Source of the DNA: Peptococcaceae bacterium CEB3
GTDB lineage: Bacteria; Bacillota; Desulfitobacteriia; Desulfitobacteriales; Desulfitobacteriaceae
Length of the DNA: 64,000 nucleotides
Direction of reading: 5' to 3'
Assembly: GCA_001029295.1 (NCBI GenBank)
Contig: LDXJ01000061.1
Location: 186,001-250,000, forward strand
Part shown: piece after piece, positions 1 through 9,667 of the stretch
Position numbering within the stretch: position 1 is the first letter of the stretch
How the letters are laid out: the number at the start of each line of letters is the position of its first letter
Notes under the pieces: model-generated
The model's database searches: none
What the model was told of the DNA's origin: nothing
The model's input: the letters and a program-made list of their open reading frames with translations, nothing else
Program-made: the position numbers and the translations under genes

Positions 1-116
1 TCCACTACCTCAGCCCCGATCTCAAGCACGAGTTCACGCAGCGCGGCCCCCGACAAATCTTCCCTCTCCCCACGCGAACCTTTGTCCGACGCGGTAATGA
101 TTCCGACTCTGAACAT
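1..116 (-). CDS. mog: Molybdopterin adenylyltransferase, N-terminal fragment (runs off window)
   Basis: Only the first 38 codons are inside the window. The protein begins MFRVGIITASDKGSRGERED, the opening of the MogA/MoaB family: a beta strand, then the SDKG-S-GEREDxSG stretch. The family adenylylates molybdopterin before metal insertion. The ATG (116..114) overlaps the TGA of the MOSC gene as TGATG, so the two are translationally coupled and this is the distal gene of the moaA-moaC-MOSC-mog operon. MogA and MoaB cannot be separated from this fragment. Confidence 0.85.
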   Translation of the reverse strand, partial: MFRVGIITASDKGSRGEREDLSGAALRELVLEIGAEVV

Positions 117-553
117 CAGGGCATCACCTCGATTTCATCACCGACAGAGATCGGCCCGCCCGCAAGAACCCGGACGAAAATACCCTCTTTCGGCATGACA
201 CAGTCCCCGGCTTGATAGTAGATCGCGCACTTACTGTGGCACTCTTTCCCAATCTGAGTCACCTCCGCCAGGCCTTGGGCACCCAGACGGAGCTTCGTGC
301 CGATCGGCAGGCTGACCAAGTCGATCCCCTCCGTGGTCAGATTCTCGGCAAAATCCCCCGGCCCGACTTTCAAACCCAAATCCTGCATTTTGCGAATGCT
401 TTCCAAAGCCAAGAGGCTCACTTGCCGATGCCAGGCGCCGGCATGGGCATCCCCTTCCAGACCGTAATTCGCCTTCAGCATGGCGGTGCCAACGTTTTTT
501 TTACGCATTCCTTTCCGTTCACTGCTGCATACGGCCACAATTTTCGCCATCAT
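116..553 (-). CDS. MOSC domain protein, molybdenum cofactor-associated
   Basis: About 145 residues, starting at MMAKIVAVCSSERKGMRKKN; an upstream in-frame ATG at 616 would add 21 residues with no family resemblance, so I prefer 553, which is preceded by a G-rich ribosome site. Stand-alone MOSC proteins resemble the C-terminal domain of Moco sulfurase. They usually show GDAHAG...R.V.LL, a 'GDFaENLtTeGidl..LpiGt.L..G' core and a conserved Cys. All are visible here (GLEGDAHAGAWHRQVSLL; PGDFAENLTTEGIDLVSLPI; IGKECHSKCAIYYQAGDC). The likely role is handling sulfur or metal during cofactor maturation, but the exact reaction of these small proteins is not settled. It sits between moaC and mog and overlaps mog. 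Confidence 0.85.
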   Translation of the reverse strand: MMAKIVAVCSSERKGMRKKNVGTAMLKANYGLEGDAHAGAWHRQVSLLALESIRKMQDLGLKVGPGDFAENLTTEGIDLVSLPIGTKLRLGAQGLAEVTQIGKECHSKCAIYYQAGDCVMPKEGIFVRVLAGGPISVGDEIEVMP

Positions 554-691
554 AGATTCGCCCCCATCGTTTTTCGTCCGGCCCCATGTCTCCGGCCTGC
601 CCGGTCCGGCGCACATCAGCGTCGACGGCTTCAGAAGACTCGGGTGCCGCTCTGCCCAGCCTGAGAGCCGCGGTCCCTATTTCTGACTTCC

Positions 692-1162
692 CTAGCTGCG
701 CCGAAAATGGCCGCTCTTCCCGCCGGCTTTTTCCATCAGACAGATATCGCCCATGACCATGGTTTTGTCAATGGCTTTGCACATATCATAAATGGTCAGG
801 GCCGCGACACTCACAGCCGTCAGAGCTTCCATCTCCACCCCTGTTTTGCCGGTAACTTTGACCGTCGCTTCGATCTCGACAATGCCCGGTTCCTCCAGGG
901 CAAAATCCAGTTTGGCACTCGTTATGGCCAGTGGGTGACACATGGGAATCAAATCCGACGTGCGCTTGGCCGCCATAATCCCTGCCACCTGAGCCACTGC
1001 CAGGACATCACCTTTTTCAATCCTGCCGCTCTTAATCCTTTCCCAGGTGCCCGCCTCCATCCGCACCCGTCCTTTGGCCAGAGCGAACCGCGCCGTTTCC
1101 GCCTTCTCGCTGACATCCACCATGCGGGCCCGTCCTTCCGAATCAAAATGGGTCAAATCCAT
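692..1162 (-). CDS. moaC: Cyclic pyranopterin monophosphate synthase
   Basis: MoaC converts the MoaA product, 3',8-cyclo-7,8-dihydro-GTP, into cyclic pyranopterin monophosphate, the second step of molybdopterin synthesis. The start at 1162 ([20 protein letters not shown]) matches family N-termini and has a GGAGGA site just upstream; the longer frame to 1189 would overlap moaA. Family motifs are present: [36 protein letters not shown] and YDMCKAIDK, where the C-terminal lysines and the histidine of MCHP are active-site residues. At 156 residues it is normal length. It begins 16 bp after the moaA stop, so they are one transcription unit. Confidence 0.95.
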
Positions 1163-1178
1163 CTTTGTCCTCCAATCT

Positions 1179-2150
1179 TTATCCTCCAATCTGCGACATG
1201 TAGCGTTTATCCTGCCACGCCTGCTCGTTCATGTGGTGTTCGGCCGGTTTACTCCAGACGGCACGCGCGAAAATGTCCAACAGTTCGGCATCCGATTTGC
1301 CGGAACGCAGGGCTGACAGCAGGTCCACTTCATAACTGCTGTGCAGGCAAGGCCTCAATTTTCCATCCGCAGTCAAACGCACCCTGTTACACGTGTGGCA
1401 AAAATGCCGGCTGAGAGCGCTGATAAACCCGATGCTCCCTTGGAATCCCTCGGGCCGCAAGTATTCGGCCGGTCCACCTCCGGCAACATCCCGGGCCTGG
1501 GGCGCTGCGGCCAGTCCCAGAAGCCGGATCATCTCGTCAATGGGAACGAAGTCGTTCCGCCGCTCGGAGCCGCTCCCAATCGGCATGAGTTCGATAAAAC
1601 GCACGTTCAGCGGATAGTTTTGGGCCAGGTCCAAAAAGCGCGGCAATTCGTCCAGGTTGAGGCTGCGCACGACGACAACATTGAGCTTGACCGGCTCAAG
1701 TCCGGCTTCAAGCGAACGAAAGACTCCTTGGAGCGCTTGGCGGACATCCCCGCCGCGGGTGATTTCCTTGTAGCGCAGCGGATCCAACGTGTCCAAGCTG
1801 ATATTCACCCGGTTAACGCCGGCCGCTTTGAGGGCAAACGCCGTCTCCGGTAAAAATATTCCGTTGGTCGTGAGCATCAGATCCTCGACTCCGGGCAGAT
1901 GGGATGCCTGCTCCAGGAACTGTACGATTCCTTTGCGCACGAGGGGCTCACCCCCTGTCACCCGAAAACGCCTGAAGCCCAAACGCGTACTGACAGCCAT
2001 CAGGCGCAGGATTTCTTCAAAGGACAAGATCCTGTCATGCGGAATCCACGGTATCCCTTCTGCCGGCATACAGTATTGGCAACGCAAATTGCAGCGGTCA
2101 GTTACCGAAATACGCAGGTATTCAATTTTTCTTTGATATTGGTCCTGCAT
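1179..2150 (-). CDS. moaA: GTP 3',8-cyclase (radical SAM)
   Basis: First step of molybdopterin synthesis: GTP to 3',8-cyclo-7,8-dihydro-GTP. The 323-residue protein has the radical-SAM cluster motif at Cys20, Cys24 and Cys27 (CNLRCQYC), the VTGGEPL motif, and the second, C-terminal 4Fe-4S site ([11 protein letters not shown]...LRPCL) typical of MoaA. It ends in Gly-Gly (SQIGG), the C-terminal tail needed for activity in this family. It is the first gene of the minus-strand Moco operon, with an ATG after a GGGGAATGTGGG leader, and it lies downstream of the glnB terminator. Confidence 0.97.
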
Positions 2151-2933: not shown

Positions 2934-3722
2934 ATGTCTGAAACTGTCATGGTCCCGATCACCAGGTCCACCGGCGCGCAAGTCGAAGAGACCGAAGATG
3001 CAGTCGTCCTGGAAACCCCTCTAACCCTTTATTTCAACGATGAGGAAATTGTGACCTTGCTCTGTTCCCCCGCCCAAATCGAGGAGCTGGCCCTGGGCTT
3101 TCTGCTCAGCGAGGGGTTTATCCGTGATCTCGCCGATTTGATTGCCATTGCCTATGACCCATGGGACAAAGCGGTCTTCGTCAAGGGAAAAAACCGCGCT
3201 CCGGACGAAGAAGTGATGAGCAAACGCTTTCTCTCCGCTTGTTGCGGCAAGAGCCGGGCCTCCTTCGCTTTCGCCAACGATGCCAGACTGGCCAAGCCTC
3301 AGGTTTCCGCAACTGTCATTTCCTTGACAGACGCTTATGCTTATGCCGCCCATCTGCAGACTCTGCCGCTCTTCCGAGCCACAGGAGGAGTCCATAGCGG
3401 CGGCTTGGCTTTCCGGGGCCAAGTCCTGTTTACAAGCTATGACATCGGCCGCCACAACGTTTTTGACAAACTGTTCGGACAAGCCTTCCGGGCCAGGGTT
3501 AACTTGGCTGACCACGTGATCTTCTTCAGCGGCCGGGTCTCCTCCGAAATTCTCCTCAAAGTGGCCAAGATGAACATTCCCATTCTCGTGGCACGTTCCG
3601 CCCCCACTGATTTGGCTCTGACTCTGGCCCGCGATTTAAACATCACGATCATCGGTTTTGCCCGCAATGATCATTTGAATATCTACACCTGTCCCCAGCG
3701 CATCATAACCACTGCCACCTAG
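2934..3722 (+). CDS. fdhD: Formate dehydrogenase sulfur carrier FdhD
   Basis: FdhD passes sulfur from a cysteine desulfurase to the bis-MGD cofactor of formate dehydrogenase and is needed for its activity. The 262-residue protein shows EELALGFLLSEGFI, the cysteine loop (SACCGKSR), FRATGGVHSGGL, the YDIGRHNVFDK motif and SGRVSSEI, in the family order. A strong CAGGAGG site lies 5 bp before the ATG. It is the only plus-strand gene in this part of the window. Its TAG overlaps the TAG of the convergent mobA in the palindrome CTAG (3719-3722). It serves the selenocysteine FdhA encoded at 6986-9667. Confidence 0.96.
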   Translation: MSETVMVPITRSTGAQVEETEDAVVLETPLTLYFNDEEIVTLLCSPAQIEELALGFLLSEGFIRDLADLIAIAYDPWDKAVFVKGKNRAPDEEVMSKRFLSACCGKSRASFAFANDARLAKPQVSATVISLTDAYAYAAHLQTLPLFRATGGVHSGGLAFRGQVLFTSYDIGRHNVFDKLFGQAFRARVNLADHVIFFSGRVSSEILLKVAKMNIPILVARSAPTDLALTLARDLNITIIGFARNDHLNIYTCPQRIITTAT

Positions 3723-4354
3723 TTTTCCATCAAGGCCGCCCATTCCTCCGGGGTGTTGACATTGGCCAGAATCTTAGCCGCGTCTCCGAACACCTTAAGC
3801 TCCTCTATGGGGACATAGCGCACCCGGCAAGAGGGATAAAAGGCGATGATCTTATGACGGCCCGCCCGCAGATTTTCCTCCATAGCCGCCAGACAACTCT
3901 TCGTGTAAAAAGCGTGCAAAGGATGGACTCCTTCGCCTGCCCGAGGTACAACGATGTCATAGCCCGGCAGACTACGCCAAAGGTAACGAATCAGCCCTTC
4001 TTGGACAAAGGGCATGTCACAGGCAGTAAAAAAAGCGGTGTCAAAACGGGCGGCCCCCAGACCTGCCACCAGGCCAGCCAAAGGACCTCTCCCCAGGACT
4101 TGATCCTGAACGACCCGGACGCCGTAAGCCTGATAAAGGGCGGGCTCATTGCTGCTGATCAGTACTTCCTCGAAGACAGAACTCAAAACGGCCAGACTCC
4201 GTTCGATCAGCGGTTTCCCAGCGAATTCCAGAAACGCTTTGTTGCGCCCCATACGCGAATTAGTTCCGCCCGCCAATAAAATCCCCGTGGCAGGCAGAGG
4301 GAGCGATTGGCTCCCTTCAAGATCCGGCCTGGTAATTCTCAAACGCCTCCTCAT
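3719..4354 (-). CDS. mobA: Molybdenum cofactor guanylyltransferase
   Basis: MobA adds GMP to molybdopterin to make the MGD form used by formate dehydrogenase. The 211-residue protein has the nucleotidyltransferase signature TGILLAGGTNSRMGRNKAFL near residue 25, the GRGPLAGLVAGL loop, the metal-binding ACDMPFV and the late HPLHAFY segment. The first ATG (4354) lies inside the end of the selenoprotein glutaredoxin frame, an overlap of 38 bp. No other usable start precedes the LAGG motif, so the pair should be translationally coupled. Confidence 0.95.
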   Translation of the reverse strand: MRRRLRITRPDLEGSQSLPLPATGILLAGGTNSRMGRNKAFLEFAGKPLIERSLAVLSSVFEEVLISSNEPALYQAYGVRVVQDQVLGRGPLAGLVAGLGAARFDTAFFTACDMPFVQEGLIRYLWRSLPGYDIVVPRAGEGVHPLHAFYTKSCLAAMEENLRAGRHKIIAFYPSCRVRYVPIEELKVFGDAAKILANVNTPEEWAALMEN

Positions 4355-4547
4355 ATTCCCGGCTGGAGAAGCCCACCAGCACCCGGTCGCCCACCCGGGT
4401 CACCGGCACTGTCAAAGCGTCCGTCAGCGCCTGCATCTCTTTCCTGACTCTAGGAAAGATAATGTTCTTTTCCGTCCATAATATTCCTCGAGACTCGAAG
4501 AACCGCCTGGCCCGCGCACAGTGCGGTCAAAGCGGCAAGACATACAT
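4317..4547 (-). CDS. Glutaredoxin-like selenoprotein with UPHC active site (TGA-interrupted)
   Basis: A reading frame of 76 residues begins MYVLPL, meets TGA at codon 7 (4529..4527) and continues as PHCARARRFFESRG through TVPVTRVGDRVLVGFSSRE to a TGA stop at 4319..4317. Read with selenocysteine at the TGA, it is a complete small glutaredoxin/NrdH-like fold. It has the redox motif U-P-H-C in place of CPYC, the cis-proline TVP, the RVGDRVLVGF strand turn and a C-terminal helix. An AGAGGG site lies 8 bp before the ATG. A hairpin starts directly after the TGA, as bacterial SECIS elements do. The same genome decodes TGA as Sec in fdhA. It overlaps mobA, which suggests a redox role in Moco or formate dehydrogenase metabolism. 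The fold and Sec reading are strong; the partner is inference. Confidence 0.82.
4502..4529 (-). promoter_or_regulatory. Putative SECIS hairpin of the glutaredoxin selenoprotein
   Basis: Starting at the A of the TGA, ACCGC (4527-4523) pairs with GCGGT (4506-4502). After a bulged A, CTG (4521-4519) pairs with CAG (4509-4507), leaving a 9-base G/C-rich loop. Position and size fit a bacterial SECIS, but the loop lacks the GGUCU seen in the fdhA element, so SelB recognition is unproven. Confidence 0.55.
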
Positions 4548-4604
4548 CGTAACACCCTCTGTTGGCTTCACCGACCTGCCCCCTTCCGGATTCGCCGTTT
4601 CGTC

Positions 4605-4652
4605 TACTATACTCTGCTCTGCTATACTCTACTCTGCTCTACTATACTCTAT
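4605..4652. repeat. Degenerate tandem repeat, CTCTGCTATA-type unit
   Basis: The segment reads as alternating ACTATACTCTGCTCTGC-like and TATACTCTACTCTGC-like units in the gap between the kinase stop and the glutaredoxin start. It is one of about a dozen locus-specific repeats in leaders and gaps of this window. Confidence 0.75.
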
Positions 4653-4768
4653 TCTTCCCTCATTCGTCTACAGCCCCGGCCGCGCGCGTCACTGCCATAG
4701 GCACCCCATGAAAGAGTATTTCCAGAAAAAATGCTGCCATGCCGCTCCTTCTCGCCTCTCAAAGGCCC

Positions 4769-6673
4769 TTATAGTAAGGTAAAACACACGCGAAATTCTG
4801 TTCCCCGCGAATCCGAATCCACCATGATCTCCGCTTGATGTCTCGCCGCGATACCGTAACACACTGCCAGTCCCAAACCCGTCCCTTGCTCTTTCGTCGT
4901 GAAGAACGGGGTGCCCAGTTTTTCCACGTGTTCCGGGCTAATCCCGCTGCCCTGGTCTGCCACCGCCAAAACGACATTTCTCTCTGTGGCGTACGTCCGA
5001 ATGGTCAGGGTTCCGCCGGCTTCCATGGCTTCCAATCCGTTGCGGGCTAAATTGAGAACGACCTGGCGAATCTCTTTTTCATTTAGGAGGAGAGCGGGAA
5101 TGTTTTCCAGATCAAGAACAACGCTTTTGTCATTGCCCACCGCGTCCGCTTGAATCAGGGGAGTCAGCGCTTCAATGATCGAATTAAGATTGTGCGTTTG
5201 ACGCTCTCCCACCTTGTTCCGGCCGATGGAGAGAAATTCGCTAATAATCGCGTTGGCACGGTCCAGTTCCTCGATCATCAGACTAAAGTATTCGCCGTAG
5301 CTTTGACAGTCCTTTTTCCCTTTGAGAATCTGCAAGAAGCCGCGGATCGTCGTCAGGGGATTGCGAACCTCATGGCTGATGCCGGCGGCCATCTCGCCTA
5401 AGAGGTTGAGCCGGTCCAGCCTGAGCATTTCCATCTCCATCTGCTTACGTTCGCTGATATCATTAATGACGACCAAAATGCAGACTTCCTGGCCGAGTTC
5501 AATCATTTCCGCGGAAACCAGGGCCGTTAAAGCCCGCTCATTTTTAGTCAGTAAAGTGGTTTCCAGGTTTCGGGTCGAACCATTGCAGATGCTCTCCTCC
5601 CGCAGTCGGGCCACATCTTCCTTATCCGCCCAGATCTTCAGCTCTTCCGCGGTCCGGCCAATGACTTCCTCCCGGCTCCAGCCGGTCATCAAAAAAAAGC
5701 TCTCATTGGCGTCTATAATCTGCCAATCAACTATGCGCACAATATTCATCATGCTGGGACTGGCGTTGAAAGCTTTGGAAAAACGTTCTTCCGATTGGCG
5801 CAACTCGGCTTCCGTCTCCTCGCGCATCGCCACCTCCTCCTGGAGCTTGGCGCAAGTCGCGAAAACCTGATCCGTGTGCTTCTTGACGATCTCCAGCACG
5901 GGAGTCAATTCAGGCCACAGGCTTTCCGGAACCTGAGCGTCGAGGGCCAGAGCCCGGGCAAAATCCTGCACCCCCCCTCTGAGACGGCTGAACAAATTCC
6001 AGGCGAGGGCCAGACTCATGATGAGGACGCCAAAGCCAATCAAGAGTATCAGGACGATTGCCCCCCGGACGTCCCGGTAAATGTCCCCAATCCCGATATT
6101 GGCCCAGGCGTGCCCGACAATTTCACCGTTCCGGTAGATGGGATAAGCCACATCGAGGACAGGCCCCCTCCGCTTAAACGGCGCGGGGTCCTGCCGGGAG
6201 AACTCCGGACGCCCGGTTTTATAGACCAGAAAACACGAATTGTCATGCGAAACCGATTTCAAATCGTCCGCGGAGAAATGCGGCCCCATGGCCAAAACCC
6301 GGTCCAAACGGATGGAGTAATAACCAAGACCCATCTGCGGGTAGTACTTTGACAAGTGATCGATGGTCGGCTGGAGCACCTTATTGAGAACGCGTGCCTG
6401 CTCATCCGGCGATGCTCCCAAGGCCTGACTGTCCGCCAGGATGTCGTGGACAGACTCCGGGAACCGGCTTTCCAACATAGAAGCCACATAATAGAGATCC
6501 TTGGACCGGTGAGCGACCCGTACCTGTATGTATTCCCAAGGGAGAAGGCAAGCCAGAAAGAGCACAAGTATCATAACAACTATGACGACGGAGGCATAGA
6601 CGCGCTTTGTAATCTGCATAGGAAAAAGATGTTCTTTCACTTTCCGAAGAAACTGCAACTTCCGCACCACCAT
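4769..6673 (-). CDS. Membrane-bound PAS sensor histidine kinase
   Basis: 634 residues. A first membrane helix lies at about 24-46, followed by an extracytoplasmic sensor region of about 160 residues and a second helix at about 205-228. Then come a short linker with coiled-coil character, a PAS domain (about 294-405, ending NDISERKQME), a HisKA domain with the phosphoacceptor His434 (GISHEVRNPLTT), and an HATPase domain with N box NLARNGLEAM, G1 DQGSGIS, F box TPFFTTKEQGTG and G2 GLGLAV. The order is that of ResE/KinB-like kinases. No response regulator is adjacent, so its target is unknown. The ATG lies in the second copy of a 28-bp duplication that carries the ribosome site and start codon. 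An alternative start is Met19 (MQITKRV). Confidence 0.93.
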   Translation of the reverse strand: MVVRKLQFLRKVKEHLFPMQITKRVYASVVIVVMILVLFLACLLPWEYIQVRVAHRSKDLYYVASMLESRFPESVHDILADSQALGASPDEQARVLNKVLQPTIDHLSKYYPQMGLGYYSIRLDRVLAMGPHFSADDLKSVSHDNSCFLVYKTGRPEFSRQDPAPFKRRGPVLDVAYPIYRNGEIVGHAWANIGIGDIYRDVRGAIVLILLIGFGVLIMSLALAWNLFSRLRGGVQDFARALALDAQVPESLWPELTPVLEIVKKHTDQVFATCAKLQEEVAMREETEAELRQSEERFSKAFNASPSMMNIVRIVDWQIIDANESFFLMTGWSREEVIGRTAEELKIWADKEDVARLREESICNGSTRNLETTLLTKNERALTALVSAEMIELGQEVCILVVINDISERKQMEMEMLRLDRLNLLGEMAAGISHEVRNPLTTIRGFLQILKGKKDCQSYGEYFSLMIEELDRANAIISEFLSIGRNKVGERQTHNLNSIIEALTPLIQADAVGNDKSVVLDLENIPALLLNEKEIRQVVLNLARNGLEAMEAGGTLTIRTYATERNVVLAVADQGSGISPEHVEKLGTPFFTTKEQGTGLGLAVCYGIAARHQAEIMVDSDSRGTEFRVCFTLL

Positions 6674-6985: not shown

Positions 6986-9667
6986 CTACAGTTTCTCGAC
7001 CTTGACCCCACACACTTTGTACTCATAAGTTTTCGTGACTTTATCGTAGGCGGCGTTGGTAAGCACGTTAACGGGTGACTCCTTGTAATGCAACGTCATC
7101 CAGAGCATACCGGGAGGAACCCTGTCCGTAACCTGAATTCTCGTCTCCAACTCGCCCCGCCTGGACGCGACCTTGATCCTTTCACCGTCTTTGATTCCCA
7201 AGCGCCGGGCGTCTTCCGGGCTCAGTTCCGCCAGTTCTTCCGGGGAGTAGCTCTCCAGAGCCGCCGAATTACGGGTCATCACGTTATAGTGAGAAAGCTT
7301 GCGCCCTGTGCCGAGAAGCAGCGGATACTCATCGTCAGGAAGTTCATCCGGAAGCTGGTACTCGATCGGCATGAAGAGCCCTTTGCCGCGGGAGAATTTT
7401 CCCTCATGCAAGAACTTCGTGCCCGGATGCTCCGCGTTGGGAACCGGCCACTGCAGACCCTGGGTACCCAGCCGTCCGAAGCTGATCCCGGCATATTGAG
7501 GTGTCAAGCGCGCAATTTCTTCCATGATCTCGGCCGGTGACTCATAATCGAAAGAATATCCGAGGCGTCCCGCCAACTCGCAGAGAATTTCCCAGTCAGT
7601 CCGCGCCCGGCCCAAAGGCTCGATGGCTTGATTGACCATCTGCACCCTCCGCTCGGTATTGGTGAAGGTCCCGCTCTTTTCCGCAAAGCTGGCTCCCGGC
7701 AGAACCACATCGGCCAGTTTCGCCGTTTCGGAGAGGAAAATGTTCTGAACCACCAGAAAATCGAGCGTTTCCAAGCCGTGGCGCACATGATTGGCATCCG
7801 CGTCGGTCAGAACCGGGTCTTCGCCCATGATATACATCGCCCTTAAATCTTTACTGATAGCGGCTTCAAACATATCCGGAATCATAAAACCGGGCTTAGG
7901 ATTGAGAGGTACATGCCAGGCTTCTTCAAACTTCGCCCGCGCAGTGGGACTTGTAACATTCTGGTAACCGGGGAATGTGTTGGGAAGCGCTCCCATATCG
8001 CAAGCCCCTTGGACATTGTTCTGCCCGCGCAAGGGATTAACCCCGGAATTCTCTTTGCCGACATTACCCGTGAGCATGGCAAGATTGGCCATAGTCATAA
8101 CATTGTCCGTGCCGCAGGTATGCTCGGTAATCCCCAAGGTGTAAAAGATCTGGGCCCGTTCGGCCGTAGCATAAATACGGGCGGCCTCCGCCATCTCCTC
8201 TACGGGTACGCCCGTGAGTTTGCTGACCACTTCGGGTGGGAATTTCTGTACTTGTTCACGGAACTTATCAAACTCTTCCGTGCGTTCGGCGATGAACTCC
8301 TTATCTTCCCAACCGTTGGCCAGAATAATGTTCATGATGCCGTTCACCAGAGCGATATCTGTGCCGGGACGCAGTCGGAGCCAGACATCCGCTATCTCCG
8401 CCAACTCGATACGCCGCGGGTCAATGACGATTAGCTTGGCCCCATTGGCCACCGCTTGTTTCATCTTGGCCCCGATGACCGGATGCGCTTCTGTGGTATT
8501 CGAGCCGATCACAAAGAGCACTTGTGAATGAGGAATCTCGTTGATGGAATTCGTCATCGCTCCCGAACCAAACGTAATGGCCAGACCGGCCACTGTGGGA
8601 GCGTGTCAGGTCCGGGCGCAGTGGTCGACATTATTGCTGCCGATCACCGCGCGCATGAATTTCTGCATCAAATAATTCTCTTCATTGGTGCAGCGAGCCG
8701 AACTGAGAGCCGCAATGGAGTCCGCTCCGTACTGGGCTTTGATCTCTCCCAGTTTTTCCGCCACCAGACTCAAAGCCTCATCCCAACTTGCCTCAACGAA
8801 CTCCCCGTCTTTCTTGATCAGCGGGGTCGTCAGGCGGTTCGGGCTGTGGATCATATCCATGCCGAAACGGCCTTTGACACAGAGCGCGCGCCCATTGACC
8901 GGGGCCTCAGGATTGGATGTCACGCCGATGACTTTCCCGTCTTTGACATTGAGATCGAAATTGCAGCCCGTCCCGCAGAAAGGGCATGTCGTCTGAACTT
9001 TTTTCACTTCCCAGGGACGTCCTTGGCCCGCCATCTGTTTTTCCGTCAAAGCCCCGACCGGGCAGACGGAAACACAAGAACCGCAGAAAACGCACTCCGA
9101 CTCCGCATAGGGCAGATCGAAAGCCGGGCCGACTTGAGTATTGAAGCCGCGATGGGAGAAGTCCAAAACACCACGACCCTGCACCTCCTCACAAGCCCGG
9201 ATACACTTGCCGCAGAGGATGCATTTATTGGGATCCCTGAGGATGAAGGGATTGCTGTCATCGATGGGCAGGTGCCGGCGCTCACCCCCCGCAAATGCCT
9301 CCCCGGTCACCTGGTATTCATAGGCATATTTGGCCAGATCACAGGATCCCATCTTCTGACAGGTCATACAGTCCAACGGGTGATTGGCGACCAGCAGTTC
9401 CAAGATAGTTTTGCGCGCATCCCGCACTTTTTCAGTCTGCGTGCGCACCACCATGCCCTGAGTGGCTTGCGTCACACAGGAGGGAGGCAGGTTGCGCATT
9501 CCCTCAATGTCCACAATACAGAGACGGCAGGATCCGGTGGCTGTCAATTCCGGATCATGACAAAGCGTGGGAATCGGGATATTGTTCATCCGACAGGCTT
9601 GCAAAACGGTGGTCCCTTTCGGAACACTCACCGTGCGTCCGTCAATCGTCAATGTGAGCCATTCCAC
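6986..9667 (-). CDS. fdhA: Formate dehydrogenase catalytic subunit, selenocysteine-containing
   Basis: 893 residues if the in-frame TGA at 8608..8606 is read as Sec354 in ...NNVDHCART-U-HAPTVAGLA, the exact active-site context of Sec formate dehydrogenases. Domains in order: an N-terminal 2Fe-2S domain (GSCRLCIVD), a His/Cys cluster (HPLDCMTCQKMGSCDL), two ferredoxin 4Fe-4S motifs (CILCGKCIRACEEV; CVFCGSCVSVCPVG), the Mo/W-bis-MGD domain with its own cluster (CPFCGTGC), and the C-terminal molybdopterin-binding barrel. The enzyme interconverts formate and CO2. The NuoE/NuoF-like partners upstream imply NAD(P)H as electron partner. The start is GTG at 9667 with AAAGGAG 9 bp upstream. Without recoding the gene would appear as two frames, but both halves align end to end. 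Confidence 0.97.
8558..8608 (-). promoter_or_regulatory. SECIS element of fdhA
   Basis: Immediately after the TGA, CGCTCCC (8603-8597) pairs with GGGAGCG (8564-8558), and inside it TGGCC pairs with GGCCA around the loop GGTCT. The same GGUCU apical loop is the SelB-binding loop of the E. coli fdhF element. This is strong evidence that the TGA is decoded as selenocysteine. Confidence 0.93.

Follow-up and report, generated by a model that had tools for sequence, protein, structure and literature searches.

A short open reading frame that overlaps mobA in the 64,000-nucleotide stretch of DNA analysed here (the window) raises the question of whether an in-frame TGA near its beginning is a stop codon or is read as selenocysteine (Sec), and of what its product might do. 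The initial annotation had described a frame at 4317-4547 with an ATG, an AGAGGG ribosome site and a TGA at codon 7. These coordinates are right; the gene lies on the minus strand, beginning at ATG 4547-4545 and ending at the TGA terminator at 4319-4317.

4317..4547, minus strand: predicted selenoglutaredoxin gene, 76 codons, UPHC active site; supported by a PF00462 match above the gathering score, by orthologues and by the reading frame
4527..4529, minus strand: in-frame TGA, codon 7, the codon of the nucleophilic residue in the CxxC pair, predicted to be read as Sec; TGA in 21 loci, TGC/TGT in 13
4555..4560, minus strand: AGAGGG, probable ribosome-binding site of the glutaredoxin gene, recognised from the sequence

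With Sec at position 7 the product would be MYVLPLUPHCARARRFFESRGILWTEKNIIFPRVRKEMQALTDALTVPVTRVGDRVLVGFSSREYEEAFENYQAGS, a protein of 76 residues. This product matches the Pfam family Glutaredoxin PF00462 (E=4.1e-9; 37 bits vs a gathering cut-off of 22.9) and displays the features of that family: the fold is of the thioredoxin type, C/UxxC stands where helix 1 begins, and the proline (VP) is conserved, P48 being invariant. An AlphaFold model of the product (pLDDT 93.9, pTM 0.81) begins helix 1 at residue 8, right after Sec7. Among PDB structures it is matched best by A. fulgidus Grx-1 (3ic4), cGrx1 (7c10/7c12) and NrdH.

Related genomes (101) were searched with stops read through, and the loci were then oriented. 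In 21 loci (17 genomes including the window's own, plus MAG HSP1.bin35) codon 7 reads TGA, and in 13 it reads TGC or TGT in the same frame; no other codon was seen at this position. Outside the window, the frame continues before and after codon 7 in 33 loci (20 TGA, 13 TGC/TGT), with N-terminal variants such as MYTVPLUPHC, MYTVPLUPYC and MYTLPLCPYC. The proposal of a continuous glutaredoxin-like protein across the TGA is borne out by these loci and by the PF00462 match, and homologues with Cys in the same place beside mobA, which had been suggested as a test, were found in the form of CPYC proteins. In the TGA forms, differences per codon position 1/2/3 were 0.160, 0.138 and 0.495 before the TGA and 0.294, 0.229 and 0.490 after it. 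This concentration of substitutions at third positions on both sides of the TGA is a mark of translated sequence.

These patterns bear on the reading in which the UGA is a true stop and the locus a pseudogene or a six-residue leader peptide. UGA is a standard stop and also terminates the glutaredoxin frame in the window, but a true stop at codon 7 is hard to reconcile with a frame kept on both sides of the UGA in 21 loci, with exchange for Cys codons only and with the third-position bias. The synonymous constraint specific to the SECIS and the presence of Sec machinery, both described below, count against it as well, and this reading is considered very improbable.

Synonymous sites were compared between the TGA and Cys forms in windows of seven codons. 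In the TGA forms, identity at synonymous codons is highest at codons 16-22 (0.88, rank 1 of 57; mean elsewhere 0.505), whereas in the Cys forms the same codons reach only 0.479 (rank 47 of 57). Codons 16-22 fold as a hairpin that occupies columns 27-47 counted from the UGA, corresponding to 4503..4483.

4483..4503, minus strand: predicted core of the conserved bacterial SECIS hairpin; loop GUC at 4494-4492, 32 nt from the UGA; extended stem 4476-4510

Standard pairs fill 96.1% of the helix's pair cells in the 19 distinct TGA sequences, and nine cells are changed on both sides, the two-sided changes falling in two pairs (U-A/C-G and U-A/G-C). None of 500 shuffles reached the observed pairing or covariation in the TGA forms. 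For the Cys forms (12 distinct sequences) the pairing figure is 85.4%, which is not clearly above shuffles. The shuffles ignore the relatedness of the sequences, and since, one MAG aside, every locus belongs to a single class, they overstate independence; the difference between TGA and Cys forms at synonymous sites therefore carries more weight. The synonymous constraint is gone in the Cys forms and the hairpin is maintained only in the TGA forms, which points to 4503..4483 as the conserved SECIS.

Published limits for bacterial SECIS elements are a loop of 3-9 nt with G in the first two positions, a stem of 4-16 bp, a spacing of 16-37 nt and an MFE of at most -7.5 kcal/mol (PMC13188914). The hairpin in the window falls within all of them, with loop GUC, a 12 bp stem, a spacing of 32 nt and -12.2 kcal/mol. 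In many TGA loci the hairpin is not stable enough to reach -7.5 kcal/mol. Three TGA loci (L090, L096 and L106) fail a strict implementation of the model because the loop-closing pair is lost. The median fraction of synonymous shuffles as stable as the real hairpin was 0.06 for TGA forms and 0.30 for Cys forms, in a null that is weakened by pooling codon usage from the gene itself; the synonymous-identity test is the stronger of the two. An Rfam scan of the locus returned nothing relevant.

The initial annotation had noted a hairpin starting at the TGA and had suggested looking for a SECIS at 4490-4530. The former does fold in the window and in close relatives, but the TGA forms as a whole do not conserve it, and at a distance of only about 11 nt its loop is too near the UGA. 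A hairpin fitting the published model does exist in this region, with its placement shifted downstream to 4503..4483.

The capacity of the genome to decode Sec was assessed from its genes. A tRNA-Sec was found at 66.8 bits, for which ARAGORN also calls the anticodon UCA, together with selA (547 bits) and a selB above cut-off. The annotation had named absence of this machinery as evidence against its proposal, and the genome does decode Sec as it had assumed. The annotation had also relied on the fdhA of the same window as a gene that needs Sec, and this gene does carry a TGA within its frame and, after it, a hairpin whose loop contains GGUCU.

6986..9667, minus strand: fdhA, formate dehydrogenase alpha, with an in-frame TGA
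8606..8608, minus strand: Sec UGA of fdhA, with a hairpin downstream that has GGUCU in its loop

A UGA in the place of a Cys could in principle be misread by a suppressor as Trp or Cys, with no involvement of selenium. This is also very improbable, given that UGA ends frames here, that the SECIS hairpin is maintained only in the UGA forms, and that the genome has both a tRNA-Sec(UCA) and a Sec-type fdhA. The gene is almost certainly a selenoprotein gene for a Sec-containing glutaredoxin, in which the UGA at codon 7 would be decoded as Sec by the organism's own SelA, SelB and tRNA-Sec, directed by a SECIS within the coding sequence that spans nt 27-47 counted from the first base of the UGA. The Cys homologues, the SECIS hairpin and the Sec machinery together give strong support to the original proposal of a UPHC glutaredoxin with its TGA at the first Cys of the redox pair.

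Sec-containing UxxC glutaredoxins (PF00462) were listed in 2006 (PMC1794560) and again in a 2026 review, with a characterised Clostridium enzyme (PMC13188914). The Clostridium oremlandii protein cGrx1 shares the common glutaredoxin fold and UxxC with the product, and its structures 7c10/7c12 are among the best profile and fold matches (TM 0.81). However, cGrx1 is only about 33% identical to the present protein, and linkage to mobA and fdh is a feature of the present subfamily. Among NCBIfam models the best for the product is YruB TIGR02196, at 43.7 bits vs a cut-off of 88.55; the NrdH redoxin is a fold match, but the present protein is far below the YruB cut-off and is predicted to contain Sec. 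The UXX-star models (NF041212, NF041114, NF041211, NF047338) likewise describe small, glutaredoxin-like proteins with Sec first, but the matches are weak and below cut-off (35.2 bits vs 66 for NF041212), and UXX-star family 1 is UxxT (PMC13188914) whereas the present protein retains the second Cys (UPHC). The same NCBIfam families are top-scoring for all 16 members of the subfamily alignment. Members of the subfamily score 100 bits or more in this class, and matches in the rest of 398 phylum genomes score 67 or less; the latter were treated as other glutaredoxins and kept out of the subfamily. No relatives were found in the phage collection. Judged by sequence, the selenoglutaredoxin represents a new subfamily within the already known UxxC selenoglutaredoxins, one that reaches no NCBIfam cut-off, and its distinctive feature is the conserved neighbourhood of molybdenum cofactor (Moco) and formate dehydrogenase genes. 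No report of a link between a selenoglutaredoxin and mobA or fdhD was found in the open-access literature.

In trees built without codon 7, whose root is not determined, the Sec/Cys label needs three changes, and most Cys forms nest within Sec forms and retain part of the hairpin. This nesting suggests loss of Sec. Nearly all Cys-form genomes of one genus (g6) still have selA, and their fdhA still carries the TGA where it lies within the fetched regions. In nine loci of a Sec-decoding genus (L093, L094, L097-L100 and L108-L110) the codon is that of Cys and the SECIS-like hairpin has decayed, and these loci are apparent cases of Sec-to-Cys replacement inside such a genus. Replacement of this kind is rare and documented mainly for FdhA and SelD (PMC13188914). 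The exception among Cys-form genomes is G052, which has a Cys glutaredoxin and an uninterrupted FdhA-like frame of 894 residues; selA was not found in it, in agreement with the Sec reading of the TGA forms. Among TGA-form genomes of the class, all have selA matches (partial in G011 and G045) except G009, where selA was not found in an incomplete assembly (90%).

The genes around the glutaredoxin gene in the window are as follows.

3719..4354, minus strand: mobA (PF12804, E=1.5e-41), overlapping the 3' end of the glutaredoxin gene
2934..3722, plus strand: fdhD of the CC-motif type, convergent with mobA; PF02634 and TIGR00129 above cut-off
4769..6673, minus strand: PAS/histidine kinase gene between fdhA and the glutaredoxin gene, in the same place in several relatives
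1179..2150, minus strand: moaA, syntenic in relatives
692..1189, minus strand: moaC, syntenic in relatives
116..616, minus strand: MOSC-domain gene, syntenic in relatives

The longest mobA reading frame starts at ATG 4354, and the next in-frame start, TTG 4342, would overlap the glutaredoxin gene too, so that the overlap reported earlier holds for either start. In relatives, the mobA frame begins within or beside the end of the glutaredoxin frame. Synteny was counted in 29 loci with long flanks. mobA is directly downstream in 21 of these, the convergent fdhD together with moaA is found in 20 of 29, and fdhA-family frames are present upstream, within 7 kb, in 16 of 29. The usual order is fdhA, often the PAS kinase, glutaredoxin, mobA, fdhD (reverse), moaA, moaC, MOSC and MoCF_biosynth (mogA-like). 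In the case of G035, mobA has moved away while fdhA and fdhD still flank the glutaredoxin gene. Two further features of the region were observed. The gap between the kinase and glutaredoxin genes holds a short tandem repeat at 4603-4655, with about 10 copies of a 5-base unit (alternatively 15 or 20 bases). A P-II regulator gene lies at 2435-2782 between moaA and fdhD and is common to the other genome of the genus; G052 has a related P-II gene after its mobA.

The remaining 8 of 29 loci, which include second copies in G029, G032 and G040, have no mobA next to the glutaredoxin gene. In G007 (L096) the glutaredoxin gene lies near DsbD/CcdA-type and AhpC/TSA redoxin genes, and the same gene clusters (29-31) are found near L088; on the other side in G007 there is a second selenoglutaredoxin with a zinc ribbon and a molybdopterin oxidoreductase. 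The UPYC relative in G007 (L096, about 7790-8138) lies just upstream of the molybdopterin oxidoreductase gene. In G032 (L106, 9198) a Sec-type selD with an in-frame TGA (AGUAAK) lies about 2.2 kb downstream of the second glutaredoxin copy, with a TauE-family gene alongside. A second selenoglutaredoxin was also seen in the window's own genome at G000:C54:69326-69502 (L118, L144), with TKTUPHC and a C-terminal zinc ribbon.

Based on the fold and the UPHC/CPYC motif, Sec7 would attack a disulfide, persulfide or mixed disulfide, and Cys10 would resolve the product. The Glu_cys_ligase family PF04262, the one family searched in this connection, was not found in the genome, which makes the usual glutathione route doubtful; the selenoglutaredoxin is probably reduced by a system of the thioredoxin-reductase type and not by glutathione. 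Its main client may lie in the maturation of formate dehydrogenase or of the bis-MGD cofactor, for example among the thiols or persulfides of the proteins of cofactor sulfuration and insertion. This assignment is suggested by the position between fdhA and mobA-fdhD-moaA-moaC, and is put forward tentatively, with somewhat less than an even chance of being correct. The FdhD of the window has the CC motif (SACCGK). A CC-motif class of FdhD has been described, and it is disputed what part the FdhD cysteines play in cofactor sulfuration (PMC6239281); the client may thus be a thiol or persulfide of cofactor maturation.

An alternative with nearly an even chance is that the protein is a general, Moco-independent selenium thiol reductant, serving for example peroxiredoxins or methionine sulfoxide reductase, and sits in the fdh/moa cluster by inheritance. 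The eight loci away from mobA, some of them near CcdA/redoxin genes or a Sec selD and TauE, agree with this, as does the known Clostridium selenoglutaredoxin, which the title of a work cited in a recent review (reference 85 of PMC13188914) describes as adapted to reduce the selenoprotein MsrA. However, the gene holds its place just upstream of mobA across protein identities of roughly 47-95%, in Sec and Cys forms alike, and G052, from another family of the same order, keeps its glutaredoxin beside mobA. The suggestion in the initial annotation that the protein supports formate dehydrogenase or Moco redox chemistry is therefore upheld in part: the neighbourhood is kept in 21 of 29 loci, but some copies lie beside CcdA/redoxin genes, selD or TauE. 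Linkage to mobA that is kept in most loci, but with eight found elsewhere, leaves involvement in the maturation of formate dehydrogenase or Moco as a reasonable proposal.

The recoded UGA could also double as a selenium gate on synthesis of the molybdenum cofactor, which is regarded as unlikely. Under low selenium, ribosomes would stop at codon 7 and would miss the mobA start, because mobA begins inside the glutaredoxin frame. If such a gate operated, MobA and the supply of MGD would fall when the Sec-containing formate dehydrogenase cannot be made, and the Cys forms would have lost the gating.

The locus adds an easily missed selenoprotein subfamily that is captured by no NCBIfam model. It also provides a natural data set in which the same gene in the same place has Sec or Cys and a SECIS that is kept or decayed, suited to tracing how Sec-decoding lineages lose the use of selenium. 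It further points to a testable redox partner in the maturation of formate dehydrogenase or of the molybdenum cofactor.
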